Positions 1 through 33,593 of a stretch of 64,000 bases of DNA are shown here, piece by piece. The stretch lies in the NCBI RefSeq assembly GCF_035083965.1, contig NC_089727.1, forward strand, positions 18,789,269 to 18,853,268, given 5' to 3'. The stretch is from Branchiostoma lanceolatum (Eukaryota; Chordata; Leptocardii; Amphioxiformes; Branchiostomatidae). The position numbers and the translations under genes are program-made. How positions within the stretch are numbered: the stretch's first letter is position 1; each line of letters starts with the position of its first letter. The notes beneath the pieces were generated by a model. It was given only the letters and a program-made list of their open reading frames with translations, ran no database searches and was not told where the DNA came from.

Positions 1-3000
1 AACCTACATTCCAGGCACTGTCGACTGATGATGGGTCAGTGGAGCAGGATTCAAGGTAAGACACGTTCTATATCTATAGATTGAGCTGTATACCACCTTC
101 GGTCGTTTGAGCGTTCTCTGTTGTGTAGTATGGACAGATTTTCAAGATCCAAAATTCATGTCATAGACCTCTTCATCTTTGAGTCCATATATTTACCAGC
201 AACATAATATCTAGAATGTCATAATACACTCGTCCATGTAAATCTCGTCCAATGTATTTATGTTTATGGAAGAAATCTGCAGATAGTAAATCTCGTATGG
301 GGACATAAATTCAAATTCTGATGTATATGTATATGTATATTGCCAATAAAACGGTGAGCGACTACAGACTGGAGCAATTGGAACTTGAATGTAAGTATAC
401 TGACTCCATGTACTGTTTCCTTACCAGAATACCACCAGCGTTTCGCGGTGTTTGGATGACTGGCAGCTCGCAATCTCATCGAATAGGTAAATTTACTTAT
501 TAGAATGCATACCTTTTCTGCTAGTGAATGATGACGATGGTATTTGCCATGAAGTAAGCAGATTCTGCATGATGTTGACATTTTCAATTAGTCCACTGGT
601 GTATCGACGTGTAACGATGTTACTTTTAGTCCTTCCCTCCATGGATAATGATATGAAAAATCTGAATGTACAGAAAACTCAGGTGGTGACGGCCCAGTGA
701 TACTTCAGCCAACGAGAGACCCTAGCAGTATGCGGACGATCGGTCCCGTGTTAGACACTATGGAGCTGGGGAGAGGACTGTGGCTAGACCAGTGTGACCG
801 TACTAGGAGCCAGCTGACGCCAAAACAACGGGTCATGGAGATGGTGAGGCTAGTAGAAAATCGTTACATGCTGGGAGCCGCGGTGGAAATGTGCTGCCCA
901 GAGTTTGTGGATTGCTTCCTGAGGGAGAAACGAGGTACGTTGTTGTCGATACTTAAAGAGAATGCGATCAAATATTTTCAATTGAACTACATTTGCTGCA
1001 ACCGCTTTGAAAAAAAAAGAAAACCTATCAATCTTAGCTTAACACGAAATCAATAAATAAGGCTTCCTGACTTGATAGTACCGGTATTTCGGCTCATACC
1101 TTATTACAGGCTGTTACTTTTTGTGTGGATTTTTGATTGATGATCATGAGTTATTTATAACTCGATTGTCTTTTCCAGGAAAGGAGCTTGTCATTCTCCA
1201 CACGGACGACTACACTGCCGAGTTTGTCCTGCCTCTCCAAGTAGCCGCTAGAGAGTCAGGAGTGTCCTGTCACGAAGAGACCATCAAGTCTACTGACTCC
1301 ATCACAGAGAAAACAGTGGAGCTCCTGCTCAACACAAACACCAGGATGGTTGCCTTGATCATCAGCCCTCAGACGCTACATCGCAACCATTGGTCGAAAC
1401 TCTCCTACGAGTTCCTGGTTAGGAACGAGAAGCTCCTGCTGCCCATCCTGCTGTACCCACCGGGCTCCAGAGACAGCATGGTCAGGGTGCTCCAGCACTG
1501 GGCTTCTGTTCTTGGCAACCTGGCATGGGAGGAGATAGAGATGGAAGGGGGGGCAGTGCCACTGAAGAGGTTGCGCGACATCGTAGACAAGGTAGTTACA
1601 TGTTTTATTTGGAAAAGCCAATCATCGTTTGCACGTGTGAATATTTTTGATGGATTGAAGTTTTTATCCACAACTTATTGCTAAATTTCTATTTTCCAGG
1701 TCATGACAGACGAAGAAAAGGGTGAGTTTATGATATTGATACCACAATTAATAATTATAACTTTCATCAGCGTACAACATTAACATGACTCATTGCCTCA
1801 TCACACGGTAACTACAAGTATATTTGACTACGAAACAATCGTTGAAACATGCAAACCTTTATCATCCTTACAATGGGACAAAGATTTGCATGTTACAATG
1901 GTTGTTTCAAGTCATATGTTGATGTTATACGCTGATGAAAGTTATGTTCAGCCTCCGTCAGGAGGTTTTACTTTTTGTTGTGTGTTTGAGTGTTCGCAGC
2001 AGTAACTCAAGTTGATGGATTGGTTTGAATTCGCTACGCGGGCATGAAGTGATGCACGAAAAATGAACGGGCGATTTAGCCCTCCCCCAGCAGCTTTTTC
2101 AGGTACTGCAGCATAATAGTTTTACCCCCTAGATGGTTGTTGAGTGGTATAGTTGATTTGCTACCAGCTGCTTGCCCGGTGAGGTGTGTTTAATAACGAC
2201 CTCAATGTAGGTCAATCTGATAACAGTATAGCTGGCTGCTTGTATTCCCATTTTTTCTGTGACACGTAGGTCTTTGGGCAGGGAAAATTTGTCAAAATCA
2301 TGCAAATCAGGACTAGACCCGTACTGTTAATGATAAAATTTGATGTATCAATTGTGTTCTATAATAGGAACTTCAAACAAATGCATTATGATACGAAGAA
2401 AGAGACGGAGATTTGGTAACATGTCATAGAAGTTATACAAAGGAAGGCCTCATTTTTATCATAAATAAGAAAATAGTATGTTACACATATGATGGATAAT
2501 TTTGATGTGATAATCACTACATTTGCAAGTTAGGCCAGCGATGACAATCAGATAGAGATAAAACTGTTGAAATTTGAAAAAATTCCACAACAAATTTATA
2601 ATTTCATTTTTCAAACTACAATAATTGTCTAATTGAGATTTGGGGTCTTTGAACTCCTGCTCAGTCAGTCAGTAGGTTGGTTGATGTATCTGTTGTAAAT
2701 ATTGAGCAGCTAAATGTTTGTAGTATGATTGTATTTAGTGCTATTCAATGACCTAAAGCATAAAACATTCAAGTGGCATAACAGACCACAAATGTCATTG
2801 TGATCCTCACAGATTTTCAGCAGATGTTAGGAAGCATCTTCAGTCGGCTGGACGAGACAGATGTAAGGCTACTGCTCCGGGTTTGGTCAGCACGTGTTGG
2901 CGATCATGAACAGGAAAGTCGAGGGATCGTGACGCCACAAGACTTGATGAGAGCAATGGTGAAACATGGGTACATCACAACTGGTGAGTAAATAGCCTTG

Positions 3001-6000
3001 CCAAACCCATCGATATCGCTACGGCATTAGATCTAGAACTGCAGGTTTTGATGCCACAAAACAACCAAAAGTTTTCTACAACCTGCTGTCACCTTTACCA
3101 CACCAGCATAGTAACAAGATACGTCATGCCAGCGGAAATTCATACAGTATGATGAAAACAAAAACAAACGCTTAATAGATCAAAATCCATATCTACAATG
3201 TACATGGAACAGTTTGCCATATGGCATTCGATCTTCTAGTAAGTCAAAGTTTCGGCAGGTGCTTCTTGTGTATATAAATCAGTCAATTTGATTATATGTA
3301 GTCTATAGATACTAGCTGGAATAACTTTTATAAAGTCCATGTTTATGTCCAAAAAGATTAGCTACCTGCAAATTCATGTATGATGGCTAATGGAATTAAT
3401 AGTATCCAAATATCCAATATGCCACATGAAGTGTGGCTGGAAACACTTAGTCTCCAATGAGACTCATGTAGACTTGACTGCGTTTCGTGTCACGTTTTTG
3501 GTATCTGCGTGAAGATAATGCCTTTTTTTACACTGCACACAAAACGTAGTCGTTCATTAAGGATACATGATGCCTATTTTGCCATTTCAGGTGACCTTGG
3601 AATGCTGGAGAAGGACATGATGGCGGCTGGGATCAGCCTCCCTGCTGTTGTGCGAGACATTCCAGGTTGGTGTCAAATTACCCAACACGAATCAAATTCC
3701 TACAATACCATCGATCATTACGATGACAAACCAATTGATTTCAATTCTATTGTGAAATCAACTGCCCTCGGTCCCCGACATTTCAAACGTTGATTCTTAC
3801 TTGTGATATTAAGATATGCCACATATAAGGTGCCAAATTGGGTTTTTAAAAGCCAGACAAGTTTTAAGTCGTCATAAAAACGCCACTTTGGCACCTTATA
3901 TGTGGCATATCTTAATGTCAGGAACGTCTTCAAACGGTAACGGAAGTTACAAAATGTGTACATTTCAGTGAGAACTGACGTTTAGTCCGTTTACAGCGTT
4001 CTACAAGAGGATGGCAGCCAGATGATTTGCGTAAAACATATTCTAACAAAGGTTGTCTTTTGCACGTAACAAATTGTCTTTATTGTATTTTTTTTAGGAA
4101 TACCCAGCGAGCTGCATCACGCAAAGACAGCAAAGGCTTTTGTGGGACCAACGGGTGGTGAGATTGAAATTCCCGGTTTTGCCAAGCTAAGTGTGCCATC
4201 AGGCATCCTCCAGCGAGAAACGTCAGTTAGTGTCTCTATCGTAGACATCCCTGGTATTCTAAGGGGTCAGGGAGGCGTCAACTGGATCTCCGGCTACCCC
4301 TGGTCCCTGTGTGAAGACGTATGTCCACGTGAGCTACTGGATCAGGTGCTGTTCTCTCCGGCTATCGACGTCAACCTACACGGTGCACAGCTTGATGGAC
4401 CCATGGAGCTACAGACGTGGCGGCCTCCTGGTTCTGAAGGCATGAAATGTATTCTACTTAAGCATTTTGATGGAGAAGGCTGGGCAGATATCACAGCTTC
4501 AACCACACATCAGATACATTCTGACAAAGTGTCCATATTTCTGCACGCCTTCTGTCCCCTGTGTGTGTTGTGGACCAAGCTTGCTGATGTAGGACAGATG
4601 ATGACATACGTGCTGTCGTTAAGAACCTTAAATTGTCGATTTTCCGCGTACATCAAGCCACACGAAGAGGACGTGGATTTCCATGTTGTCTGTAGAGACA
4701 AGGGTGTTACGAAAGACGACTACCTCCCTGGCTTCACCATGTGTGGAAGCAACAAAGCAATGTTCGACCTTTATCATAGGAATGATATTGAAGTTGCTGT
4801 CCATGTTCAAAAAGGCCAGAAGGAATCCATGAAAATAGAACTACGTGCCAATCTCTGTTGTGAGGAAGACGGACAGAACGTTCAAATGTTTCTGGACAGA
4901 CCGAACAAGAAACATGTGAAGGGTGACGTCATCATAAAGTGTATCCATGAGCAACCACCTCGGACCGTTTGTGAGTTCAAGTTCCGGGAGGTAGGATCTT
5001 CTAAGGAGTGATATCACCGAACAATATGTATTTTGAAGCAGGAGTTGTTAGAATAACCGCTTAGGATCACAGCACACAGCTTATATAGCTTAGTGTTTAA
5101 TACCAAACACTACTTAATATGGAATTTAGTTCTGTCAAGAACATCCTTCTGCAATTGTACCCAACTATTTTTCTGGTTTCGCCATGTTTCTGATATAATA
5201 TTTTGTGTTTTCCCCGTTTTAGGAAGGTCGTGTTTCTAACAGTGAGTACATTATGCTCTTTTGTAAAAGTAATGTATTAAGATATCAAATTAGTACTGAT
5301 ATAACGGACAAGCCTAGGAATGGCAATGTGCTAATGTTTCATTTTTCTGTAATGACAATCTGTTAATAACTCAGTGTAATTATTTTACTGTAACTTTGTC
5401 AGTAGCTCGTTGAAGAGGTTCATCAGTCACGTATAATCACAGTTACAAGAATATTCTTCGAACAGCAACTTTGTAGCTGTGATTTTGTATAAATTGAAAT
5501 GTAAAAAAGTGATTAGCAATCTCGCGACTTAAGATAGACTGATAAACTGAATATTATCTATTACCTAAAAACCACGTTTAACTTAACGTTACAGGATACC
5601 TGCAAAGTCACTGATAGCAATGAAAGTCTATGGTGACTACTCACCACGTTTTTGGTTATAGTTTTGCTCATATACACCTAACATTATTATTTCTTTATCT
5701 GTCTTGATAATTCACCAGGATTAATGACTACGTTTGCGTTCGTGTTCCTGCATACTTGTTAGGTGATGGTAACAGGACTAATGACCACCATCCTGACACA
5801 TCCCAACCTCATGCTGGGTCTAGTGGCATGCCAACTGAATCTAGTGCCCAAGGTGAGAATCCAAATACATGTATACCCAGATTATGGCACCCTTAGATTT
5901 GCATTAAGGTCGTTCAGCTTTATACTAATTAAAGCAACTGATACAATATCAACTCTAATTTTCAACCATTAAACTTGCAGATGTACGTGAGACGGCTAGT

Positions 6001-7730
6001 GAAGGAGAGGACCCTCATCCAAACGGAGGTCCGACAGGGGCTGAAGCACCCACCTCTCCGAAAGAAGGTAAGGATTCAATGTTTGTCTTAGACAAGCTGT
6101 TATAACAGCAAGTTGTTTACCGAAATTGCTTAGTCGTCCCAAAGTATAGAGGGTTTGCACTGTACATCACACTGCAGCATTGTTTTAGCGAAATATTCCA
6201 ACTTTGATACAGAGGCTACTTTACGCATGTAGTAAAGAAGTGTGTAGATAAGATATGTCACATTTGGCTGATAAGTTTTAAGAGAACGAAAGGTCTTGTG
6301 AGTGAAGCTACTGGTGCTAAAGCCATTACCAGGTATTTACTAATAGATAAAATGCTGTACTTGTACTTGTACTAACAACAGGGCGAATAAGCTTCTTGGG
6401 AAGCTACGCGTGCATCGTAATAAAAAATAAACACCTCAAACTCAATCTTTTTCTATGGACCGAGGCTCAAAATTATTAAAAATCATAGTTTGCTACTTTT
6501 TATGATATTGATAATCTATCTGCAACATTTTTTTTCATTTCGCTACTTAAAGGGTACAAACCCGTGGTGTTGATGATCAACGACGAGTATGGAACATCGA
6601 ATGGGGGAACGTCCACTATTCATAGACAGATGGCGTGCTTAATGGCTTCCAAAGGTGCAAAGGTCTACAGCACAGTATTAGAGGCGAACCAGAAGGATGT
6701 GGATGATGCAGCTGCTGATGGGGTTCAGCTGATCTTCCCCAACACATTTGAGGGTGACGACAGAAAGCCTGACCTTAAATGGCTAACCTTTGACCACCAG
6801 AATCGGTATCCGAAGCTGCCACCACATGTAGACTTCGTCGTCGGACATGTAAACATCACAAGCCGCGCAGCAAGAGAGATCAAGGAGCAACGCCTTCCTG
6901 ACGCAAAACTCGTCCAAGTCACGCACGTTATCCCAGAAGACGTCGCACACTACAAGAGTGAAGAGAAGGAGTTGAGCATAGAGGAAGAGAGAGCCGCTAT
7001 CCTGGAAGACCTACAGCATGCTGATGTGATAGTCTCAGTGGGCCCACGCTTGTATGACTACTACAAAAATGAGACAAGAGAGGAAGAACGGCATCAAGAG
7101 TTTTTGCCTGAGCCGTCTGCCATCTTCAAGAACACGAAAGTGAAGTACATCGACACGGAAGTGAAAGCAGTTCTGTCCACTGGCGGGGTGGAGAGGGTGA
7201 AAGGCTACGATCTTGCAGCGAATAGCATGGGCAAGGTGATTGATGAGCTACCCAACACAAAGTGGCGAGGCCGTGGCATCAGGCGTGAAGATTTTTCAGA
7301 AAGTAAAGCAATCATCCAAGCCAACATGGACAAGGGTAAATTCAACTTCACTCCAATGAAATACGGTACCCAGGAAGAGCTGAGCAAAGACATGCAGCAG
7401 GCCCATGTCGTTCTGATGCCGTCACGTGCAGAGCCATTCGGACTGGTTGGTCTGGAGGCTATCGCTGCAGGGGTCCCAGTCCTGATCTCCCACAAGTCTG
7501 GTCTTGCGAGGTTCTTGGAGACACAGGATCCTGAGTTCGACCGAACGATCGTAGAGATCGAAGACAACGATGAAGAAGCCGCCCAAACCCTGGCTAAGAG
7601 AATCATCAAGGTTCTGAAGAATAGCGAAAGGGAGTTTAAAGCCGCACAAAGTTTGAAGGAAAAACTTTTGGCCTCACCGCACTACTGGGCTGCTTCACAC
7701 TCCAAGTTCCTGGAAATATTTGGCCTCTAG
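1..7730 (+). CDS. TIR-like / DED / ZU5 / UPA-like / GT4 glycosyltransferase fusion protein (5' partial)
   Basis: The gene enters from the left edge. Exons by splice signal and phase: 1-55, 428-486, 683-934, 1179-1591, 1700-1721, 2813-2983, 3591-3665, 4098-4990, 5223-5241, 5763-5852, 5981-6067, 6553-7730 (stop TAG). They give at least 1103 residues. Domains, counted from the first in-frame codon in the window: TIR-like fold ~122-260 (KELVILHTDD, VALIISPQTL, HWSKLSYEF, LLLPILLYP); DED ~267-348 (helices around DETDVRLLLRVW and TPQDLMRAMVKHGYI); ZU5 ~355-500 (VGPTGGEIEIPG, LSVPSGIL); UPA-like ~510-646; a Ser/Pro/Gly-rich linker 647-711; GT4-type GT-B glycosyltransferase 712-1103. The last has the Gly-rich N-terminal motif (GGTSTIHRQMA) and an intact EX7E motif (EPFGLVGLE, 7431-7457). 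The death-fold and ZU5 parts suggest assembly-driven cytoplasmic signalling; the GT part suggests sugar transfer. Substrate is unknown. Exons of 22 and 19 nt make internal skipping easy to miss. GT4, ZU5 and DED calls are firm; the TIR call is moderate. Confidence 0.85.
3808..3916. mobile_element. Short palindromic MITE in an intron of the TIR/DED/GT4 gene
   Basis: About 31 bp at the left end (attaagatatgccacatata...) is repeated inverted at the right end (...tatatgtggcatatcttaat), leaving a loop of roughly 45 bp. Both ends carry TTAA, which could be the target duplication. It lies between the exons ending at 3665 and starting at 4098. Confidence 0.7.
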
Positions 7731-9540
7731 GTCTGTTGCCTTCAGGCTGCCCAGAGTGCAGAATGTATTCAGCTAGTGGATTTCAGAGTGTTTCATTGCA
7801 ATTTAATATTAATAACTTTAATGCAAGTTCATGCCCGAAGGCTAATTGCAGACAAACAAGTACATGGGAATACATGGGAATCATGGGAATATTAGTCAAG
7901 AACATGGAACTCTTAAAAGATGGTGACTTTCTGTTTCTGACAATCATCATATGCTACGTGCTCTTTATGCTGAAACAGTTCAACATCGATATCATGTCTT
8001 CCTGTAGCTGTGTACCTTCCCTTGATATAGAGCTGATTAATTGTATAGTAACTTTACTCTCCCAGTTCAAGTTAATCATTTCATCTAATCCTAAGCTTGT
8101 TTGTTCAATTTCAGATGTTAAGGAACTTGCAGAATTGTGTAATAGGTATTCTTTTGTATGCTTTGTAAATATATATATCATATATTGTATATAATATATA
8201 TTTTATGTATGTATAGATGACTGAATGTATAGTCTTGTACATATTTCTTTATATATAAATATATGTGTGTAAATTGTTTTCTAGAACTTGTGGCAAAAAT
8301 GATGCTAAAGAATAAACATGTAAAGTCCAATAATCTTTGGCTCAGATCAGAAAGTAACACATGACAACTTAATCAAACCATTCATCTGTCTTTCATTTAT
8401 TCAATCCATATGCTATGATTACATTTCTAACAACCACCTGGTCATCCCACTATTTCCTTACTAACTACAAAATGCAAGAATGGAACTTTATCAGGCCTAA
8501 AACAACTACAACACTACTTTGGAAACTAACATGTGGAAAATATATAACTGCGAAAACAAAAATAGATTATGCCCCAAAACAGTACCTCCTTATGAATCTG
8601 TTTGTCATATATGACTATTGACTTTGAGAGGTCCAAGCAGAGGTTCGGCTCCGGCTCGTTTTAACGTTCTTTTTTACTAAGGGACACTCCATATTTTGTG
8701 AGAAAACAGACACAGATATACTCTGAGAAGTACGTTCATTTTTCATAGAGGTAACAATCCCATTTGTGCACATAACACAGTCGCATCAAGTTAATATAAT
8801 AGTTAAACGTTATTTTGGGATGCTCCATTTTTAACGGGTGATTTTTGAACAGTCGCTTTTACATTCTACACATATAAGTGATGCCACAAAACAAGGAATA
8901 CAGCCTTTACTTTAGATGGCATGTATTGTAGCCGTTTCTCTCTTTTCCTTAAACACCTGCTACAAAAAATAATAATCCTAATGATATCAACCTAATAAAA
9001 TTGATCCTAATGATAATAATCTATTAATAATAACCTAGCAAAAATAATCCTAATCCGAGTAATAATTAGCTAATGATTACAATAATGATTATAACAGCGA
9101 CGGTAATGATGTTGATTACGATGATGGTAAACATAATAATTTTTTGGCAAAATCATGCCCGAAGACAAATTGTAAACAAAACACTGTTTAAAAGGTGTTC
9201 ATACATGTACTTCACAGAGTAGAAAAATGAACTATATATAAAGGAATTCAAAGCAAAATGACATGTATTCTAAATATACATGTCTACTTATGATAAGCCA
9301 TTTGGAAGATTTTACTTCTTTTCTGCATACAGTGGAAGATAAATTGTCCACCATTTGGGTTCATAAACGACGTAAATATGTAAAAAGCATAGAGAATTTT
9401 TTTTTTTTTTTACATTTCAATGAATAGCTTGCTCTCCTTTAGAATTGTGATCATTGACAGATACGATGTAGTTCATCTTCCACTGCCTTCCCCGTACAGT
9501 ATTAACATGTTCTCTCGTCAATAGGCATTTTTTTTTCAAG
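7731..9540. other. 3' flank between two convergent genes; no gene seen
   Basis: AT-rich spacer between the stop of the glycosyltransferase fusion (+) and the stop of the P450 (-). A candidate polyadenylation hexamer AATAAA lies at 8311-8316, about 580 bp past the + strand stop, so 7731-8330 is probably 3' UTR. A TA-rich patch covers 8168-8265, a T run lies at 9400-9411, and 8960-9070 has many AATAAT-like steps. No coding exon was recognised. Confidence 0.6.
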
Positions 9541-12500
9541 CTATCCGCGTGGAACGGCGCACAGTTCAAAGGGGAAAGGCGCATTGATGGGTGCAATGGG
9601 CAGCCTGAGCGTTCCCAACATGGATGGCTCAGGTGCGCCCTCTGGCAGGTGGAAGGTGAAACGCTGCATCAGGGAGACGAACAGCATGAAGAGCTCCATC
9701 TTGGCCAGATGTTCACCAAGACATACTCGGTGGCCTGAAGAAATCGGGGTCAACAGAAAAATGGTCAATAGATCAGAATTGTAATGTGTCCACCCAAACA
9801 CGTCCAAAAAATGGTAAACTGGTCAGAATTGTGATGTGTCCATCCAATCACGTCCCAAAAATGGTAAAACAAGTCAGAATTGTGATTGTTCCATTCAACA
9901 GGTCAAAAATGGTAAACAGGTCAGTCATATTGCGATGTCTCCATCCAAACACGTCACAAAAATGGTAAACAGATTAGAATTGTGATGTCTCCATCCAAAC
10001 ACGTCACAAAAATGGTAAGCAGATCAGAATTGTGATGTGTCCATCCAATCACGTCACAAAAATTGTAAACAGATCAAAATCGTGATGTGTCCATCAAACA
10101 CGTCCCAAAAATGGTTAACAGATCAAAATTGTTATGTGTCCATCAAATCACGTCACAAAAATGGTAAACAGATCAGAATTGTGATGTGTCCATCCAATCA
10201 CGTCACAAAAATGGTAAACAGGTCAGAACTGCGATGTCTCCATCCAATCACGTCACAAAAATGGTAAACAGATCAGAATTGCGATGTCTCCATCCATTCA
10301 CGTCACAAAAATGGTAAACAGGTCAGAATTGTGATGTCTCCATCCAATCACGTCACAAAAAGTGTAAACAGATCAAAATTGTGATGTGTCCATCCAATCA
10401 CGTCACAAAAATGTTAGATGGATCAGAATTGTGATGTCTCCATCCAATCACGTCACAAAAATTGTAAACAGATCAAAATTGTGATGTGTCCATCAAACAC
10501 GTCCCAAAAATGGTTGATAGATCAAAATTGTTATGTGTCCATCCAATCACGTCACAAAAAGGTAAACAGATCAGAATTGTGATGTGTTCATCCAATCACG
10601 TCACAAAAATGGTTAATAGGTCAGAATTATGATGTGTCCATCCAACACGTCACAAAAATGGTTAACAGATCAAAACTGTGATGTGTCCATCAATCACGTC
10701 ACAAAAATGGTAAACAGACTAGAATTGCGATGTCTCCATCCAATCACGTCACAAAATGTTAAACAGATTAGAATCGCGATGTCTCCATCCAATCACGTCA
10801 CAAAAATGGTAAACAGGTCAGTATTGTGATGTCTCCATCCAATCACGTCACAAAAATGGTAAACAGATCAAGATTGTGATGTGTCCATCCAATCACGTCA
10901 CAAAAAATGCTCACAGATCAGAATTGTAATGTGTCCATCGAACAGATCACCAAAAAAATGGTAAACAGATGGACAGGCTATATCGATGGCTGACTAAGCA
11001 ATGGGAGAGACTGACTGACTGACTGACTGACTGACTGACTGACTGACTGACTGACTGACTGACTGACTGACTGACTGACTGACTGACTGACTGACTGACC
11101 TCGGTATAATGTTATAACTTCTATAAGTCCGCCGGGTCATTTGCTATAACCTACAACAACAATATTAATGGCAAATAAAATAAAAAAAACTGAGTGAGCG
11201 AAGCAAACTGGTAGATAGATACAACGAATGGCCTCAACGTGGGCTCATGGTAGATGTATACAGCTGACTCACCGGTACTAAACGGGATGATCGCCTCGTG
11301 TTTGACGAAGTTTCCGTCCAGATCCAGGAAACGTTCCGGTTGGAACTTGTTCGGCTCTGGGAACAGCTGAGGGTCCATGTGCACCGACCACAGGTTGACC
11401 TGTAACACATCACGTATTACATGGATGGGTGAACGATAAAATGGTCCACTGTATCTGTATGAATGGACCTCTGTATCTGTATCTATGTAACGTTAGCAGG
11501 TATGTCCCTGAAGCTCAATTGGTAGCGGCTTGAGCCTCCTGTTTCCAATCAGTTGGATCCGGGAGACCCCGGATCGAATCCCGGGAAGGGTATCCTTGTC
11601 GGAGCTGCACCGTCTTTCGGAAGAGCCGAAAAATGGGGGTCCCGTGTTCGAGGAGGTGCCTCGAGTGCGTTACAACAGCCTCATTACTCACATGGGTACC
11701 TACTGGCTGAAATACTACAACCTGGTGAACAACTGTTACACACCCGTTTCACAGGCACGCGGAGCGGCAGTAGCTGGTTTTAGTATTACACTGGACGACC
11801 TGTCTAACAAACACATCTACCATTCTAACTGCATACATGATATCGAATGAGGATGCCTCTACAGTACTCGACAGTAACGAGTTCCACTCAAGGATAGGGC
11901 CGATTATTAAATAAATGAATGACAGAGGGAAAAAAGGGACAGTAATAAACATGGATTTAAAGACAGGTGAATAAAATGAAAATGGTCGGATGGATTGATG
12001 AATAAAAAATTCCTGAAAGAATGGACTGGAAAGAATGTAAAGAAGTACGGACTGCCTGAAGGAGGGGTATATACGTCATTGGGTAGGTAGATTGGGTGCC
12101 AAACGGCTAATTCAGTTTGCTAAGGCCACACCAATTTATTCTTGGTTAATGGAATGAAAAAATAAGGGGGTCAGGTGCAAGTTTTCACCCCAGCCTTCTG
12201 TTTTCTGTACTTTTCATGATTTTTTTTGCTAAAATTAAAATTGAAAATCCGTTAACCAAGAAGTTAAATTGTTGTGGCCTAAAGGTTAAAACGAATACAG
12301 AAATAAATACTTGGATAGATGGATGGATCAATGTAATAGATAGAATTCTAAAAAAACACTAAAACAAACATTTTTCATACCATAATGGCCGCCTCCTGAG
12401 GGATGTTGTAGCCATTGAGGATAGTGTCCCTGGACATGCCATGAATAACGAGGGGCACGATGGGTTTCATTCGCAGGACTTCCGCTAGGGTCGCATTCGT

Positions 12501-15500
12501 GTAGGGCAGAAGGTTCCGTTGTGCGTAGGACGGCGGTGTCTGCCCCAGCACGGAGTCTATCTCCTGGTGAACCTGTGGTAATATGCATGATGAATTACTC
12601 CGAGAAGGAGGCTCATCTCCTGAAGGAGTATTGTAATTGGTGTTGTGCGCACGTTCGCAGCCAATCACGATCCCATTGCTGCATTGGTATGTTACTTGGC
12701 ATATCATCTGCTAGGTTGCGCATGATGATGCAAGTTGTCTTCTTTTTTTTACACCGTAACAGCTTTTATCGTTGTATGTTATATTTTAAAAGCACCCCTA
12801 TATTGACGAGCATGTGGAACAGGCCACTAATCTCGTACATGTTTTGTGGCTATGCGGTCGTAGGTTTTGTGCCAAGCAGATGTTGGGTGGTTTGGTGTGT
12901 CGTCCTTTGAATAGCTGCACCAGCCGTTGTCTGATGCCTGGTTTCAATTAAGGACTCAAATCAGATGTTAGGCTGCGGCTTCCTACATATTCGAAGTTTC
13001 GACAACGGCGCAAACGGCGCACAAAAAGCGCGTTCGAATCATTCCATGTAAGCTCTTGCAATACGACCTTTTATCCCGGCGGGCAATACCGTAACGTTAG
13101 AATGTAGGCCGGTCTGGAACACCCATATCAAACGTCTTTTTTGCGCCATCCTGCTTCTGACCTAAGCTGAGCCATACTAACAAACTGAAGTTTAAAAATG
13201 CGCTATTTACGATGTAATATTACTAAAAGTTAAGGGAAACTTGCCTTTTCCTTGATTTCCGGGTTTGTCATCATGTACAGCAGGGCCCAGCGTGTGGCGG
13301 TGGCGGTGGTCTCGGTACCGGCCACGAACAAGTCTAGCAGTACCTGGGATGTTAAACAAAATTCAGTCACGAACAAGAAGGGCCGACATTTGCTCCCGAG
13401 CAAATGCAGCATATTTCACTCCCCATGCAATGATGGACGTTTTGGGTGGGTGTTCCTGCAACATGACCTCAGGTAACCTAAATGGAATACGTGTTCGTTG
13501 GCCAACGGGAGATAATATATTTCACTCTACCTATATGGGGAGTGAAATATAATAGAAAATGTTTCCACATACATTCATTCGTTCCTTTGTTCGTTAATTT
13601 GTTCGTTCGTTCACTCACTAACTCATTCATCCATTCATTCACCTCTTGTAGGTCCTTGTCGGCGAAGTTTTCCCGAGCTTTTTCGTCCTCAGCCCGCTGC
13701 TGCTCAAGGAGGAAGGCGTCGATAAAGTCCCGTATGTCGTTTGGGTCGAAGGTCTGCCTGTGTTTCTCTATCTGTTCACCGCCGAACTCTTGGAGAGCCA
13801 GAATCGTTTCCACCATTTTCCCTTGCCTTGATACTTTGCTGAGGTGGAGGTGACGAAACACGGGGTGAAGCATTGAAAGAACATCACTGAATGTAGGCTT
13901 TGCCTCAACTGAGGCGTTCAAAAGGCCAACCAGTCGCAAAAAATCCGGGTCACCGTATTCAAATCGGTCCCCAAAGACAATCGAACAAATGACGTTGCAA
14001 ACAGCGTTTTGCATCATGACTTTTAAATCGAACGGTTGTCCGTTTTGCGACAGAAATTCCTGAACCAGCGCGTTGGCTTCTTCGTTGACCTTGCCCTCCA
14101 AACTCCGCTTGCCGACGCCGAAGTCCCGGAGAGTCATCAGTGCGAATTTGCGCTGTTGCTTCCAGCGTGGTCCATAGGCGGCCATTATGACACCTGGAAA
14201 TAGATAGCGTGTTTGTGACATGTGCGTCTGTCTCGTTGATTATGAAAATAAAGTTGTAATTAGTATAATTCATTTGAAATGATGGATCCACCAAAATTAC
14301 ACTTTCGGGCGTGGCCCCTACGTGGCCCCGTGGGACACCCTGTGGTTGCCAGGCTATTTTTGGACCCGGCCGGGACCCCGAATCATTTTAACTCGGACTT
14401 AAAATCAATAGGGCGTATTCACGTGACGTCATCACCCCTGCCCTCCGTGGGCGGCCATGTTGGTGCTCACCCTGCAGCGAAGTTTCTCGGTGTCCGACGG
14501 TCTCTAAATTTCCAAGGAATGCGAAGTCGTCTAATCGCTGTTTTATCATATGCAAAGAGTCCACAGCCTCACATCCTTTTCGCTACAAAAATCCAATTTC
14601 ACCTACTGGAAATAACCCATTATCGACGAGCGAGGAAATGTTTTCCCCAGCTCGCAGCCTACAAACATGGCCGCTAAACTGTTTACAGAGTACGCATAAA
14701 ATCAGTTCACAGCATACAAGTGTTCCAAGGCCTGCAACCACGTAGTACAGTGTCTTGAGTGTCGTGAAAAATTTTGTTGACAGGAAGTACGTTATGATCG
14801 GGAAAGTTCGACGTTGAAAGACCCCCCAGTTTACGAACGTATCTCAAGCAACGGCTACACGGTGCCGCCACTGTGTTTCACAACGGGCCTGTAATTTGCT
14901 TTTCGACCAGATACAAAGGTTTCCATACACTCACGTTGATTCTCAAACGTCAACTATTTAGATCCGCTGTTCGTATGTCAGAAATCCACCTTTGTATCAG
15001 TCGTTAGTCCCTTCGTATGTTCCCTTACCTACACGAGAAACGCCAAACCAATCTTACTGTTACCCGATCAGTGTGTGCTTTATCAGTCCCAATCAAACAT
15101 CTGACCACGAGGCAAAACACCATGATTGTGAGACAAAACGTTTCGAAGGGAAATTATGAATGGCGTAGAATACATCTGCTATTTATACGGAGAGTTCCAT
15201 AGGGCTCCACTATCAAGTGAGCACCAACATGGCCGCCAGTGCTCGTTGCTAGGGGGAGGGTCACGTGACTGAATACGCCCTATACTGGACCCGGTAACAA
15301 ATAGACGCCGTGAGCTAACCGTGCGAACGCCGGGAGGTACCCCAGTACCCGACAGTTATGCTGCAGTACCTTGGGAAGCCGATAGGGGGCCAAAATTTAA
15401 TCATTTCGTCACACCCTACCAACACACCAAATATAAAACCAATCCATACAGCGATTCTTGAGTTATCTTGTTTACAGACAGCCGGACAAACAACCGCTGC

Positions 15501-18500
15501 TGAAAATACAACCTCCATGACACATTTCATGTAGGTAATATAATAAGTGGCATGTAGTAAACAATATAAAATGTCTACGATATGGAAGGTGAAGTTACCT
15601 CTAACATTGTTTGCGTCATCACTGCGTACATCCACTATTCCTGGTGGGATTTTACGACAGGAGAAATCTTCAGCTCTCTTGACCAGGGCGTTCCGGATAG
15701 TCTCGTACCCAGTCAGGACGATGTTCGGAACCCCGCCGGTCCAGATGGTCATGACGTCACCGTACTGTTTGGACAGCTCGGTGAGAGTGGCGGGAAGAAA
15801 ATCGGACTGGAAATAAAATGATACAAAAACGTATTTATTTGCAAACACAATTAGTTTATATGTACAATTTGGAAAAAAAAGAGACAGCTATATTACTAAC
15901 CTCGCACACAAAATGTCTCAGTCAGTGATTTAAATATGTTGCACAAGATCAATTCCCAATAGATTCGTCATATATGCCTCATACTGAAAATAAGTATTTT
16001 GCTAGCAAAAAAATATAAGTGCAATCTATTTTGGGGAAAAATGTATACTAGTAAGTAACAGTTAGGTGACATGATTGGAAGTGTGAACATTGCATGTTTT
16101 GAGTACTTAAAATATTGTATTCATTTCATGTCAGTATTACTTTAAACTTCCGGTGGTAGGGAAGCGCCTACTTGTGACCCATAATGGTACAAGGGGTGAT
16201 CAATAAGTCCTTTGCTCTACCCAGAAATAAGGTGCACAACTCCAATTTTGGGTCATAATCATGTAGTATGACATCTTTTAGCAATATCCACCAAATGTCA
16301 AATCATTGTGGCCAATACTTTTTTGTCGACGTCCATTTGAAAACTATTAGGTAAGTGACGAGAAAAACAAGGGTACACTGTGGTCAGAGCTGTGTGGGTC
16401 GAGTTCTTCATGCCATGAATCAGCATAAAACCTTCGAAGATATTGTCAAAATGTGTCAAAAAGTATCTGACTTTCAGCAGAGCAAGCTGACCTGCACACC
16501 TCAAGTCACAGCGCAATTGTCCATGTTTTCATCCTTCTACCTCACCTAATGTAACTGAGTGTCGTCTGCAAGTGATGATCAGAATGTTCTGAAGTTTGGT
16601 AGATATTGCTAAACGATGTCATACTACATAATCATGCCCCAAAATTTGAGTTGTGCACCTTATTTCTGGGTGAGGCCTAGGACTTATTGATCACCCCTCG
16701 TACAGAAGTCTGGAATGGACGGACAGAAGATGTGCTGTAAATGGAGAAATGTCCGCAGTGGTTTTTTATGTTCGCGGTTTGACTGATCATGAAGTTCAAT
16801 GCCAATCCCATCATGACAGTTGTGGACATGTTCCCCCAAAAGTGACATTCCCCCAAAAGTGACACGTGTTCTTTTCTACTGCTGGTCTCTACCGCTACTG
16901 ATTGCGGTGTATTTCTTCACTCAAAGATTTCACAGTGGATTAACAAAAAGTATTGAGTTACTATAGTGTAACAATTGGGATCAACCTACATGTACACCTA
17001 CAACCTACACAACCTAACTGACCAGTCTAACGGGTCCGGAGCTTTTAGCCTAGTGGTTAGTGCGTTGAATTCCCAAGCCGTGCGGATCGGGAGTTCGAAT
17101 CCCGGGAGCGGCGTACTCGCCTCTGAGGCGTCGCCAAATTTTTACTATATTGTGTGCAGATTGCAAGAATTCTAGGAATTGTACAGGAATGTGAAAGTCC
17201 ATGGGACGATAACTCAAGAATGCCTGGATGTATTGTCTTCATATTTTGTAGGTGGGTAGATCTGTGGGAGACCTTGTAATGATTGGATTTTGGGCCCCCT
17301 AGCAACTTTCTATGGTACTGCAGGGGAACTTTCACTTTTCAAATCTCGTCTTCTGAACATGCTATAGTCATGATTTCTAAGTGGTGGATAGCTCTTTGTT
17401 AGGAAGATATGTCCTGTAGATTTGGACCCCCTAGCGGCTTTTTTTGGAACTGCAGGAGCTGGTTTTGACTCAAACTTTGAAAGAGAATAACGCATGAAGG
17501 GGATGACAGATCATCATAATTTTTGGTGTGTAGATAGCTTAAGTGATGATTTACATAATCATATGCCAATTATGCAAATCAATATCTGATTTGCATAATT
17601 AATGAGGACAGTTAATAAATCAGCTGGATTCTATTATAGGACTCTCAAACACATGACATATGTAACTGAGAAAGAGATAAATATCGATAGATATCAATTA
17701 TGCAAATTGATACTTAATTTGCATAATTAATGACAAAATACTATTAATCCATAGTGGTAAATGATGGGGATTTCATTTTTGCACCATTTGGAAGTTAAGT
17801 AAATCTGGCCACTATTAGACACAAATCTTGCATAGAGGGCCTCATTTACATAATTCATGAGGAAATGGTACGATATCTTTTTTTGTGAAAACAAGATTTT
17901 CATACATTGGACAACTTGTGTTATTTTGGTAGAGAAGGTGATCGACTGATATGATTATGCGAGGTCCTTATTTGCATGTGGGTTAAAAACGAAAACGTTT
18001 ACAGAGACCACCGTCGCCATGGCAACATCTTTTTATGTTGCCAATCTTGTTTACAATGGTTCCTACTCCGGCCCTGTGAGTAACGAAGACACGGGACGAG
18101 TCTTGAAAGTAAAGGGGGAGTAGTGTAACAGTGGGGATCAACATCCACTAACTGAACAGTCTTACTGGTCCTAGTGGTTAGCGCGTTGAATTCCCAACCG
18201 TGCAGGCGGATCGTAAGTTCGAATCCTGGGAGCGTCACCTCTTTGCCCGGTTTTTACAGAATCCCGAAAGCGGCGTACTCGCCTCTTTGGGTTTTTACAC
18301 TGCCCTACTGTTGACCCCCTCATGGGGCCTGGTTCTGAACAGTGACATGAGTGAGGGAAAGTTGTTAGCTGCCTAAGGTGGCCACATGCCCAAGGTGACT
18401 GTTTTTTCTCGGCCCTTTGATTGGTCGAGTACATTGGCATTGCTGCCACCACCACCCCCAACCTGCCATGTCATCAGCTGTTGCCTTTCCCTTTGTCCAC

Positions 18501-21270: not shown

Positions 21271-21959
21271 CACTGAGCGAAAAGTTGAAGAAGAAGATGT
21301 GAAAGAACAAAAATTAAGATAAAAGGTTTACTTAGTGTACCGTGTTCTGTGCGTTCAGACATTTCTTCAACTTGAATGACCACTTAGTTTTCAGATCGAA
21401 TGCAACGTTTCTCCACGTTTCACCATGAAAAATAACAAGTGTTATACATAACAAAATACTCTTTGTGGTTGTGTTACATAAATTTACGCTCTGATAGTGC
21501 ACTGTCATTCAAACAAACCTCGGCCTCTTTTGTCATGGCCAGTGGAGTATATTTGATATGTGCAACGAAGAGTGCATGTTGGACGAGTCAATCATTGAGG
21601 GGTGTCTTGCAAAAACTAGACGGTGTTACTTGTTTTTGTTTGCACCATGAGATGCGATGCGTGTACATTCCAAATTGCCTGAATTATATGAGGTCGACTG
21701 GGGATATCCTATGTAGATTTCAGCTTGAAAAGACCAGTTAAAAAAGATAGAGGCAGAGCCACCTCACAGCTGCAAGTAAAGGGCGCCCTCCCCTCTCCAC
21801 CTGACTGCCATGACGCGCCAAAACTTGCCCGACGGGTACTGAACCTTCACCTTAGGTGACACTGCGGGGACACTGACGTCTTAAGAAATTGCCAACTTCA
21901 GAACCCTCTGGACGTTTTCTTGCAACTATTGCGTCTTCTATATGTATTCTTCGGTCACG

Positions 21960-23174
21960 ATGTTTCTCCTGGTTCGTGCCTTGTGTCTGTCTCTCTCATT
22001 CGAATTCGGGCTCGTCTTGAGCGCTGCGCCGACATACCAAGGCGGCTGCGGCGGTGTTAATACGGGGGACAATGGGACCATCGAGTCCCCACGCTGGCCC
22101 CGTACTTACCCAAACCGACGCCGTTGTGTGTACGAGATCAGGGCACCGCCCGAGTCGACCATCGCCCTGCAGTTCCCCACTTTCCACCTGCAGCCCCGGC
22201 AGAGGAACCGTTGTTTGGACTGGCTGAAGCTTTACGACGGGGACAACCTGATTGGAGGCCCGTTCTGCGGAAAGGAAATCAGCCCTGACCGGATCTTAAC
22301 GTCTGAGACCAACAAAATTACGGTGGTTTTCAAGAGTAACCGCAGACGGGTCTTCCCTGGGTTCAGGGGAACCTACAGTACAGACGTACCGTCGCCCGGC
22401 AGTAAATGTGGACGCCCCGTTATCCCCAGGACGCCCTGGACAAGGGCGAGTACCGGGAGCAAGATCGTGGGTGGAAATGTTGCGGCACCTGGCAGCTACC
22501 CTTGGCAAGTTGCACTCAAGCATAAGGTAAATTATGCTCACTTCTGTGGCGGGGCTTTGTTGAACGAGAACTGGGTTGTCACCGCCGCGCAATGCGTTGA
22601 CGGTGACTCTCCAGCCGAGCAATTTGTAGTGACTGTTGGTGAGCACGATTTAAACAACAGTCCGGACTGGAACTATGTCGGCAGTATCTTTATCAATCCC
22701 ATCTATTCACCCGATACTGTTGAAAACAACATCGCTCTGCTGAAGCTATGGCCTCCTGTCTCTCAGAATGATCACGTCCAGCCGATCTGCCTCCCTAAAC
22801 AAGGTTTCGAGACTCCGCCAGGGACTATCGTTACCGTGACCGGGTGGGGCAGAACCTACTTTGATGGCCCCAGTTCACCCGTCCTACTACAAGCCGACAT
22901 GCCAGTAGTATCTGCCGAGAAATGCAAGAAAGTGTATCGCCATCTTGCACTGATCACTAGTAGCATGATGTGCACAGGATACGATGCAGGCGGGGTGGAC
23001 TCGTGCCAGGGAGACGGCGGCGGCCCCGTGGTGGTCTTCCCGTCCGAAGGGCCTGCTTACCTAGCCGGGCTGGTCAGTTTTGGTTATAAATGTGGTGAGG
23101 TGGGTATACCGAGTGTGAACACTCGGGTGTCCTCTTACGTGGACTGGATCCAGGAAACCATGGATAAATATTAA
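21960..23174 (+). CDS. CUB + trypsin-fold secreted protein 1, catalytic triad lost (pseudoprotease)
   Basis: Single-exon gene for 404 residues. The start at 21960 is chosen because it aligns with the only start of the sister copy; an in-frame ATG at 21942 has no counterpart there. Signal peptide (MFLLVRALCLSLS...), CUB domain ~25-140 (CGGVNTGDNGTIESP, LKLYDGDN, FPGFRGTYST), a linker, then a chymotrypsin-fold S1 domain from IVGG (I169, after K168). The disulphide cysteines and S1-pocket Asp347 are kept. All three catalytic positions are changed: His to Gln211 (TAAQC), Asp to Asn257 (ENNIALL), Ser to Gly353 (GDGGGP). Known S1 pseudoproteases act as binding or regulatory proteins; that role here is inference. 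The long open frame argues against a decaying pseudogene. Confidence 0.9.
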   Translation: MFLLVRALCLSLSFEFGLVLSAAPTYQGGCGGVNTGDNGTIESPRWPRTYPNRRRCVYEIRAPPESTIALQFPTFHLQPRQRNRCLDWLKLYDGDNLIGGPFCGKEISPDRILTSETNKITVVFKSNRRRVFPGFRGTYSTDVPSPGSKCGRPVIPRTPWTRASTGSKIVGGNVAAPGSYPWQVALKHKVNYAHFCGGALLNENWVVTAAQCVDGDSPAEQFVVTVGEHDLNNSPDWNYVGSIFINPIYSPDTVENNIALLKLWPPVSQNDHVQPICLPKQGFETPPGTIVTVTGWGRTYFDGPSSPVLLQADMPVVSAEKCKKVYRHLALITSSMMCTGYDAGGVDSCQGDGGGPVVVFPSEGPAYLAGLVSFGYKCGEVGIPSVNTRVSSYVDWIQETMDKY

Positions 23175-25304: not shown

Positions 25305-25788
25305 ATAAGTTTACGCTCTGGTAGTGCACTGGCATTCAAACAAACTTCGGCCTCTTTTGTCATGGCCAGTGGAGTATATTTGATATGTGCAACGAAGAGT
25401 GCATGTTGGACGAGTCAATCATTGAGGGGTGTCTTGCAAAAAATAGACGACGTTAGGTGTTTTTGTTTGCAGCATGAGATACGACGCGTGTATTTTTCAA
25501 AATTGACTGAATTATATGAGGTCGACTGAGGATATCTTCAGTAACTTTCAGCTTGAAAAAGGCCATTAGAAGACACCAACAGCGTTCAAACCACCTGATA
25601 GCTGCAAGTCAAGGGCGCCCTCCCCTCTCCACCTGACTGCCAATGCCATGATGTCAAAACCTGTCCGACGCGTACCTTCACGTCGGGACTTCTGTGGGCG
25701 CTGACGTCTTCAGAAATTGTTCAACATCAGAACCTTCTGGACGTTTTCTTGTAACTCTAGCGTCTTCTTGACGTATTTTTCGGCCACA

Positions 25789-27057
25789 ATGTTTCTCCTG
25801 GTCCGTGTCTTGTGTCTGTCTCTGTCCTGTGGGCTCGTCTTGAGCGCTGCACCGACATTCAACTGCGGCGGTGTTTATACGGGAGACAATGGGACCATCG
25901 AGTCCCCTAGTTGGCCCCATACTTACCCAAACCGACGCCGTTGTGTGTACGAGATCAGGGCACCGCCCGAGTCGACCATCGTCCTGCAGTTCCCCACTTT
26001 CCACCTAGAGCCCCGGTGGAGGAACTGGAGGACCCGTCCCGGACGTTGTATGGACTGGATGAGGCTTTACGACGGGGACAACCTGATTGGAGGCCCGTTC
26101 TGTGGAAAGGAAATTAGCCCTGGCCTTGTCTTCACGTCTGAGACCCACAAAATTACGGTGGTTTTCAAAAGTAACTTCAGAAGGGTCTTCCCTGGGTTCA
26201 GGGGCACTTACAGTACAAACCTACAGTCAACTACGCTGCAGCCGACCGATGATGATGTTGACAGCATCACTCCGGCGTACACCGTTAACAAGTGCGGTCG
26301 CCCCGTTGTCCCAAGGACGCCTTGGACCCGACCAAGCACCGGGAACAAGATCGTGGGAGGAAACATTGCGGCACCAGGCAGCTACCCTTGGCAAGTCGCT
26401 CTCAAATTATCTTTTAGAGGTAACATCTTCTGTGGCGGTGCTTTGTTGAACGAGAACTGGGTTGTCACCACCGCGCAGCCCTGCGCTCTTGATTATAGTA
26501 CTACTAGAATTGTGGCGGTTGTTGGTGAGCACGATGTGAACAACAGTCCGGAATGGAAGGAGTCTGTAAAAGTCCAAAAGATCATTACACATCCCACCTT
26601 TTCATCCGGTAGAATGGGTGACAACATCGCCCTGCTGAAGCTAGTGTCTCCCGTGTCTCTGAATGATCACGTCATGCCGATCTGCCTCCCTAAACAAGGT
26701 TTCGAGACTCCGCCAGGGACTATCGTTACCGTGACCGGGTGGGGCAGGACCTATCATGGCCCCGGTTCACCCGTCCTACTACAAGCCGACATGCCAGTAC
26801 TATCTGCCGATAAATGCTGGACTAGTGTGTATGGTACTAGTAGCATGATATGCACAGGCTACGATGCAGGCGGGGTGGACTCGTGCCAGGGAGACAGCGG
26901 CGGTCCAGTGGTGGTCTTCCCGTCTGAAGGGCCTGCTTACCTAATCGGACTGGTCGGTCGGGGTTATAGCTGTGGTCATCCCGGTTATCCCGGTGTGAAC
27001 ACTCGGGTGTCCCAATTCGTGGACTGGATCAAGGAAACCATGGACAAAAATTCATAG
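25789..27057 (+). CDS. CUB + trypsin-fold secreted protein 2, His and Asp lost, Ser kept
   Basis: Single-exon tandem sister of the gene at 21960, 422 residues. Signal peptide MFLLVRVLCLSLSCGLVLSA, CUB domain ~25-150, a longer Thr/Asp-rich linker than the sister, then the S1 domain from I188 (IVGG after K187). Nucleophile Ser370 (GDSGGP) and pocket Asp364 are intact. The His position is Gln230 within TTAQPC, with one extra Pro before the Cys, and the Asp position is Asn279 (GDNIALL). Normal S1 proteolysis should therefore be absent. A further ATG-free open stretch extends upstream to 25717, but 25789 directly precedes the signal peptide. A role in the humoral or digestive fluid is inference only. 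Confidence 0.9.
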   Translation: MFLLVRVLCLSLSCGLVLSAAPTFNCGGVYTGDNGTIESPSWPHTYPNRRRCVYEIRAPPESTIVLQFPTFHLEPRWRNWRTRPGRCMDWMRLYDGDNLIGGPFCGKEISPGLVFTSETHKITVVFKSNFRRVFPGFRGTYSTNLQSTTLQPTDDDVDSITPAYTVNKCGRPVVPRTPWTRPSTGNKIVGGNIAAPGSYPWQVALKLSFRGNIFCGGALLNENWVVTTAQPCALDYSTTRIVAVVGEHDVNNSPEWKESVKVQKIITHPTFSSGRMGDNIALLKLVSPVSLNDHVMPICLPKQGFETPPGTIVTVTGWGRTYHGPGSPVLLQADMPVLSADKCWTSVYGTSSMICTGYDAGGVDSCQGDSGGPVVVFPSEGPAYLIGLVGRGYSCGHPGYPGVNTRVSQFVDWIKETMDKNS

Positions 27058-32655: not shown

Positions 32656-33593
32656 ATGGCACCAACTCGTTGGGGGATCGTGAGCGCTGGAAAAATCAGC
32701 AACGACTTCAAAGTTGCTCTGGACACTCTGCCCGACGAAGAACACCAGGTGAGCGCTACGTCGTTATCTGAGTATTTGTATGAAGGTTTTTCTGTGCTGG
32801 TAATCGGTAAGAGTTTCACACTTTATTTCCGCACATAGTTTTGGGACAGATCATTTTTCGCATTCTGATTAGCTGTTTTGTATTTTTTACTACTACTACG
32901 ACTACTACTACTACTACTACTACTGCTGCTGCTACTACTACTACTACTACTACTACTGCTACTACTACTGCTACTTCTACTGCTGCTGCTGCTACTGCTG
33001 CTACTACTACTGCTACTACTACTGCTACTGCTACTACTACTACTACTACTACTACTGCTGCTGCTGCTACTACTACTGCTACTGCTACTGCTACTACTAC
33101 TGCTGCTGCTGCTGCTGCTACTGCTACTGCTACTACTACTACTGCTACTACTACTACTGCTGCTGCTGCTGCTACTGCTACTGCTACTACTACTACTGCT
33201 ACTACTACTACTGCTGCTGCTGCTGCTACTGCTACTGCTGCTTCTACTACTGCTACTACTACTACTACTTCTACTGCTACTACTACTACTGCTACTACTA
33301 CTACTACTACTGCTGCTACTGCTACTACTACTACTACTGCTGCTGCTGCTACTGCTACTTCTATTACTACTACTACTACTCTCGTTGTCAAGCTTGTCCA
33401 CAGTAAGGTTCATAGCAGATTTTAATCATTGTTATCCTTTAATGTTGGCAGGTGGTGGCTGTGGCAGCCAGAAGCCTGGAGAGAGCAGAGCAGTTTGCTA
33501 AAACTCACAACATCCCGTCAGCTTATGGATCGTATGCCGAGCTTGCAGCACAGGAGGTCATAGGTAGAGTAAGACACACAGACAGACACAGGT

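Follow-up and report, generated by a model that had tools for sequence, protein, structure and literature searches.

A candidate lancelet gene joining TIR-like, death effector-like and ZU5-UPA-like parts to a GT4-conflict glycosyltransferase

NACHT-glycosyltransferase proteins were reportedly described in coral by Hamada in 2013. Kaur et al. (2021), in the accessible part of their paper (PMC8195603), propose GT4 glycosyltransferases as effectors in animal and bacterial conflict systems, and the same part reports GT4-TRADD-N proteins in cephalochordates, hemichordates and cnidarians, GT4-TRADD-N-LRR fusions in cephalochordates, more than 500 GT4 paralogues in Acropora, and TRADD-N proteins with FIIND and UPA-ZU5 fusions for which autoproteolysis is predicted. 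The available portion of Zhang et al. (2008; PMC2575513) puts the domain combinations of TIR in amphioxus at 28, of which 20 are amphioxus-specific. Here we describe a candidate gene at the start of a 64,000-nucleotide stretch of the Branchiostoma lanceolatum genome (contig NC_089727.1; this whole stretch is hereafter “the window”), in which TIR-like, death effector domain (DED)-like and ZU5-UPA-like parts precede a GT4 glycosyltransferase. We give somewhat better than an even chance to its being a single animal gene that encodes an intracellular fusion protein of immune type, with TIR/DED assembly, a ZU5-UPA switch and a GT4 output. The TIR-DED-ZU5-UPA-GT4 combination was not found named in the literature searched (most subscription papers lay outside the search), and we regard the architecture as new, though its kind is already published: a preliminary description of the locus had called it unusual, which holds for the exact combination as far as searched but has to be set against the GT4 and FIIND/UPA-ZU5 fusions already in print (accessible part of PMC8195603).

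Twelve candidate exons on the + strand form a single open frame that is already running at base 1 and closes with the stop at 7728-7730, with GT-AG at all exon borders visible within the window, which confirms the phase-consistent splicing put forward in the preliminary description. As base 1 is already coding, the gene must start upstream of the window and is incomplete in 1-7730; the frame also stays open without exon 428-486, so the first exons are uncertain. Exons (with GT-AG borders and a shared frame) and other features are as follows.

1-55, 428-486 (possibly skipped) and 674-934, + strand: N-terminal exons in the same open frame, no domain recognised
1179-1591, + strand: exon of the TIR-like domain (single-sequence AlphaFold2 model, Foldseek matches to TIR domains)
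1700-1721, + strand: 22-nucleotide linker exon, GT-AG, keeping the frame
2813-2983 and 3591-3665 (span 2813-3665), + strand: two exons of the death effector-like domain (PF01335, below cut-off)
4098-4990, + strand: ZU5-UPA-like exon
4098-4567 (approximate boundary), + strand: its ZU5-like half, with motif blocks GGEIEIPGFAKLSVPSG then SPAIDVNLHGAQLDGPMEL
4550-4555, + strand: Phe-Cys where NLRP1/CARD8 have their F/S autocleavage site (local alignment with rat NLRP1)
4568-4990 (approximate boundary), + strand: its UPA-like half, with YIKPHEEDVDFHV against CARD8 YYHPHPEDIKFHL
5223-5241, 5763-5852 and 5981-6067, + strand: polar linker of three exons, a frame-keeping chain
6553-7730, + strand: GT4-conflict glycosyltransferase exon with stop (PF20706, alignment with 25 relatives)
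7185-7187, + strand: Gly codon (G211) at the donor-site Arg position
7431-7457, + strand: EX7E motif EPFGLVGLE (E293/E301)
8311-8316, + strand: AATAAA, a possible poly(A) signal 3' of the GT4 stop

Splice sites were scored with an approximate weight matrix and expressed as percentiles of all GT or AG sites in the window; all 11 donors and 8 of the 11 acceptors exceeded the 95th percentile. The ZU5-UPA-like exon cannot be spliced directly to the GT4 exon, since the frame would be lost; the join depends on the 19-nucleotide exon 5223-5241 and two frame-neutral exons. The real interval permits four legal splice chains (one with one exon, two with two and one with three). In dinucleotide shuffles of that interval (n = 100; site thresholds set at the observed minima) a chain with three internal exons arose once, one with two exons twice and any legal chain 21 times; the link therefore exceeds chance, yet this is no proof of it. 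Within the GT4 exon the earliest Met in frame falls inside the first predicted strand, so GT4 requires an upstream exon. The open frame and the splice signals together predict that the 12 exons form a single transcript. Imperfect inverted repeats were seen by eye in introns of the gene (∼1750-1950 and 3811-3915) and are possibly insertions resembling miniature inverted-repeat transposable elements.

The last exon is a full-length member of the GT4-conflict family, matching Pfam PF20706 over profile positions 1-382 of 385 (E-value 1.1e-78, 265 bits; cut-off 26). To judge by the family name, PF20706 and the GT4 of Kaur et al. are presumably the same set. Relatives were sought in bacteria: a plasmid search returned a GT4 relative in 11 of 72,556 plasmid records, and genome contigs, where an initial scan found nothing, gave 124 when scanned with a five-sequence alignment, 80 of which were kept. 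Twenty-five were aligned with the window GT4, namely the 23 of those 80 with long matches plus plasmid loci L001 and L002; their open frames run from 490 to 2182 codons (L021 and L029 reach the locus end and may be cut), and since some are mutually close they are not 25 independent cases. In this alignment the window GT4 keeps the GG loop (G17/G18), two family His, GP, Lys 216 and EX7E (E293/E301). EX7E and the GG loop are present in 25/25 aligned relatives and in 4/4 plasmid relatives; in the genome loci the conservation of EX7E is partly built in because these were recruited by that motif, while the four plasmid relatives were recruited independently of it. The Arg/Lys pair of the GR...K site in GT4 enzymes holds the donor phosphates. 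The window has kept the Lys, but the Arg, present in all 25 bacterial relatives, is Gly (G211), so that the preliminary claim of a full GT4 with intact EX7E is right as to length and motif and needs a caveat at the donor site. Catalysis by this domain is accordingly putative.

When eight of the bacterial relatives were scanned with Pfam, all eight carried PF20706, and a nucleoside triphosphatase (NTPase) domain of STAND/AAA type lay above cut-off in three (L008, L011, L022; AAA_16, NB-ARC, nSTAND5) and below it in two more (L007, L013); L009 and L012 had no other kind of domain, and L017 had Zeta_toxin and NUDIX beside PF20706. This last is a Nocardiopsis protein (1227-5765 of its locus), and in the alignment L018 and L039 have GT4 parts that look similar. 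A Rhizobium protein (L003, 5197-9138) has GT4-conflict at its N terminus, with B12-binding and radical SAM domains after it, and the two genes after a Sinorhizobium GT4 fusion (L002, 7572-10594) resemble, by eye, SIR2 and a HerA-type ATPase. A peptide-pattern scan of viral contigs found no relatives of GT4, ZU5-UPA or TIR.

Upstream of GT4, the ZU5 motifs, the DED and, at low confidence, a TIR-like fold are supported. For exon 1179-1591 a low-confidence single-sequence AlphaFold2 model (predicted local distance difference test [pLDDT] 57.8; predicted template-modelling score 0.57) has the element order b-a-b-a-b-a-a-b-a, a TIR-like succession of strands and helices. Compared with the PDB by Foldseek, this low-confidence model gave 13 TIR domains among the best 50 of 1824 matches (E 10), and the highest target-normalised template-modelling score (TM-score) among the matches listed was that of TIR domain 4lzp_D (0.60). 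By eye, a conserved Trp is followed by Ser at Trp+4 and Glu at Trp+6; the Ser occupies the usual catalytic Glu position of TIR NAD hydrolases, so the domain is perhaps more likely to be a scaffold than an NAD hydrolase. The paired exons 2813-2983 and 3591-3665 match PF01335 as an 83-residue piece at E 0.0011, over 62 profile positions.

In exon 4098-4990 the ZU5 blocks GG-x-I...VPxG and SP-x7-G-x5-P-x2-L stand in order, a joint pattern that was defined after the exon had been seen. It occurred in 0/20,000 shuffles and in 0/25 control proteins, and this exon alone had it among the 802 open reading frames (ORFs) of the window. By comparison with PDB chains of UNC5B and ZO-1, the second block has identical spacing, whereas the first lacks one residue and the stretch between the blocks is longer. 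Pairwise scores against UNC5B and ZO-1 were matched by 48/1000 and 40/1000 shuffles, respectively. CARD8 aligns on the UPA motif alone (3/500 shuffles as good), and a local alignment with rat NLRP1 pairs AFCPLCVL with SFSPMGVLL and then HEEDVDFHV with YLEDITFHL (24/500 shuffles as good). Human NLRP1 gave its best alignment in a different register (37/500 shuffles as good), and the UPA-like half also drew a weak Pfam match to PTEN_C2 (E 1e-4), below cut-off.

A number of results weigh against reading the locus as one immune-type fusion. Pfam gave no TIR match (a 145-residue piece of the TIR-like exon had no family at all at E 10 with default filters), no ZU5 match (PF00791, same settings) and no UPA match in exon 4098-4990, while the PF01335 score of 19.6 bits falls short of the curated cut-off of 35.9 and its E-value in the joined protein (1068 residues, exon 674 onward) is 0.067. 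The AlphaFold2 model of the ZU5-UPA exon was unusable (pLDDT 38.6), with no ZU5 protein among the best 50 structure matches listed. None of three profiles found the exon significantly. A UNC5B/ZO-1 profile scored it at -0.1 bits, not close to the top of the 802 ORFs; an NLRP1/CARD8 profile placed it 1st of 501 including shuffles, but with an E-value of 1.4 and 5th among the window ORFs; a profile of all five of these sequences, whose alignment was out of register, gave it rank 2 of 501 and rank 11 among the ORFs. The exons linking ZU5-UPA to GT4 are short, three acceptors lie below the 95th percentile (674 at the 42nd, 5981 at the 77th and 6553 at the 94th), and the donor site has lost its Arg. 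Barring two short chance-level matches, no second copy of the gene was found in the window, and three plasmid GT4 relatives, one of which has B12-binding and radical SAM domains, had no NTPase domain at E 0.01 (0/3).

A 97-residue piece of the TIR-like exon gave Aminotran_5 (E 0.17) as its only Pfam listing, PADLOC matched no TIR family in exon 1179-1591, and a Pfam search of exons 1-934 gave no convincing domain. PDB sequence searches found nothing with the N-terminal half and one chance match only with ZU5-UPA (RGS1, E 0.25). The preliminary description had named TIR, DED, ZU5 and UPA domains fused with GT4 in one gene and proposed profile searches and structure prediction as checks. The single open frame, its GT-AG splicing and GT4 stand; the profile searches recovered DED below threshold and left TIR, ZU5 and UPA below Pfam detection. 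What speaks for these three are the TIR-like fold of the exon model, the two ordered ZU5 blocks and the short UPA matches to NLRP1/CARD8, the ZU5-UPA model having contributed nothing.

Should the fusion reading hold, the N-terminal TIR-like and DED-like domains would be homotypic assembly surfaces, the central ZU5-UPA-like module would be a restraining switch, as in PIDD1, NLRP1, CARD8 and UNC5, and a flexible linker would bear the C-terminal GT4-conflict glycosyltransferase as output. Clustering through TIR/DED, or displacement or loss of the N-terminal part, would then most likely free the UPA. The available part of PMC7794386 describes the UPA, flexibly linked, as promoting oligomerisation of NLRP1/CARD8 C-terminal fragments; by analogy a freed UPA-linker-GT4 would oligomerise and cluster its GT4 domains, which would place a sugar onto a target. 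The domain order of the preliminary description fits, and so does its suggestion of an immune sensor that puts out glycosylation: PF20706 is named for conflict systems, and some of its bacterial relatives have NTPase domains. UPA oligomerisation, release, glycosylation and the immune role itself are what we infer. If this is a single protein, a glycosyltransferase output would lie behind a ZU5-UPA switch like the one governing PIDD1 and NLRP1/CARD8 signalling, and the fusion would be a defined construct on which to test whether GT4 domains serve as immune effectors, as has been proposed in print for both animals and bacteria.

How the switch would work leaves room for alternatives. UNC5B carries ZU5-UPA and is not known to be cleaved. 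Autoproteolytic gating, raised in the preliminary description, is possible in the window, where the Phe of the FIIND F/S site is kept and the nucleophilic Ser is replaced by Cys. On an NLRP1/PIDD-like scheme the ZU5 would cut itself between Phe and Cys, and UPA-linker-GT4 would be freed once the N-terminal fragment is gone; the match of AFCPLCVL to the rat NLRP1 site, the retention of the Phe that CARD8 requires, and a UPA, flexible linker and payload laid out like the UPA-CARD fragment (accessible part of PMC7794386) speak for it. The human NLRP1 register and the UNC5B precedent do not, nor does the accessible part of PMC3210808, in which CARD8 is cut between Phe-296 (equivalent to UNC5b Leu-677) and Ser-297 and the second Ser of SF/S is required for cleavage in CARD8 and NLRP1. 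We consider such a self-cutting switch unlikely, and it is distinctly improbable that the locus encodes a PIDD/NLRP1-style receptor in which this cut releases UPA-GT4 for an inflammasome-like assembly, glycosylation replacing protease activation and the GT4 being such as bacterial immune-type proteins have. The GT4 domain might also be a pseudoenzyme, that is, a sensor end binding sugar nucleotides or glycans for which TIR/DED would be the output. The Gly at 7185-7187 is the argument for this, but EX7E, the GG loop, both family His and the site Lys are kept, EX7E is equally present in the plasmid relatives not recruited by it, and another Arg three residues past the Gly (214) might substitute. 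G211 is, moreover, one of five departures (Y12, S103, S188, G211, P294) among the 24 columns that do not vary in the 25 bacterial sequences, which makes this a generally divergent domain; we find a pseudoenzyme rather unlikely.

Two transcripts or genes would account for the locus if a TIR-DED-ZU5-UPA product stopped with the TGA of 5009-5011, and GT4 were a protein of its own, starting from a Met that is in frame within exon 5763-5852. The ZU5-UPA exon can indeed be read through to that stop, poly(A)-like signals are present at 5928-6475, some legal chain is common enough in shuffles, and the real interval offers its one-exon and two-exon chains as well. Neither AATAAA nor ATTAAA was found, however, in the ∼900 bases from the alternative stop (ending at 5011) to 5928, the three-exon chain is rare by chance, and the exons share a single frame; we give this split little credence. 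Whether exon 1179-1591 might hold some other Rossmann-type domain turns on the missing Pfam TIR match and on lumazine synthase and a designed Rossmann fold, which take the top E-value ranks above TIR, as against the 13 TIR domains among the 50 matches listed and the TM-score of 4lzp_D. A non-TIR fold seems to us quite doubtful.

Downstream of the fusion gene, pieces of a Cytochrome P450 gene lie on the opposite (-) strand at 9541-15887, a region that includes a minisatellite (9757-10970; 24.3 copies of a 50-base unit) and then a GACT run at 11009-11099. Two similar CUB-trypsin ORFs on the + strand (21885-23171 and 25705-27054), each apparently one large exon, are perhaps tandem duplicates. Introns, together with these P450 and CUB-trypsin neighbours, point to animal DNA. 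A long low-complexity stretch at 32811-33498 yields artefactual ORFs in several frames.

Among known systems, the PIDD1, UNC5 and ankyrin proteins (ZU5-UPA-death domain) share both ZU5 motif blocks with the window, whose first block and inter-block stretch differ in length from those of UNC5B and ZO-1; their death domain is C-terminal and absent here, where the death-fold-like part is N-terminal. NLRP1 and CARD8 (FIIND, that is ZU5-UPA, then CARD) have in common with it the order of ZU5-like and UPA-like halves, a flexible linker, a C-terminal payload and the cleavage-site Phe. In the window, however, the payload is GT4 and not CARD, Cys stands for the Ser nucleophile, and no NACHT or LRR was seen. 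The GT4 conflict proteins (GT4-TRADD-N-LRR in animals, STAND-GT4 in bacteria) likewise combine GT4 with death-fold-like or immune-type modules; no TRADD family was listed for the joined protein at E 10 (default filters), and the window differs in having GT4 at the C terminus behind TIR-like, DED-like and ZU5-UPA-like parts and Gly for Arg at the donor site. The Acropora expansions, some with NACHT, are coral immune-type proteins that share GT4 with the window (accessible part of PMC8195603), in which there is no NACHT and TIR-like and DED-like parts are present.

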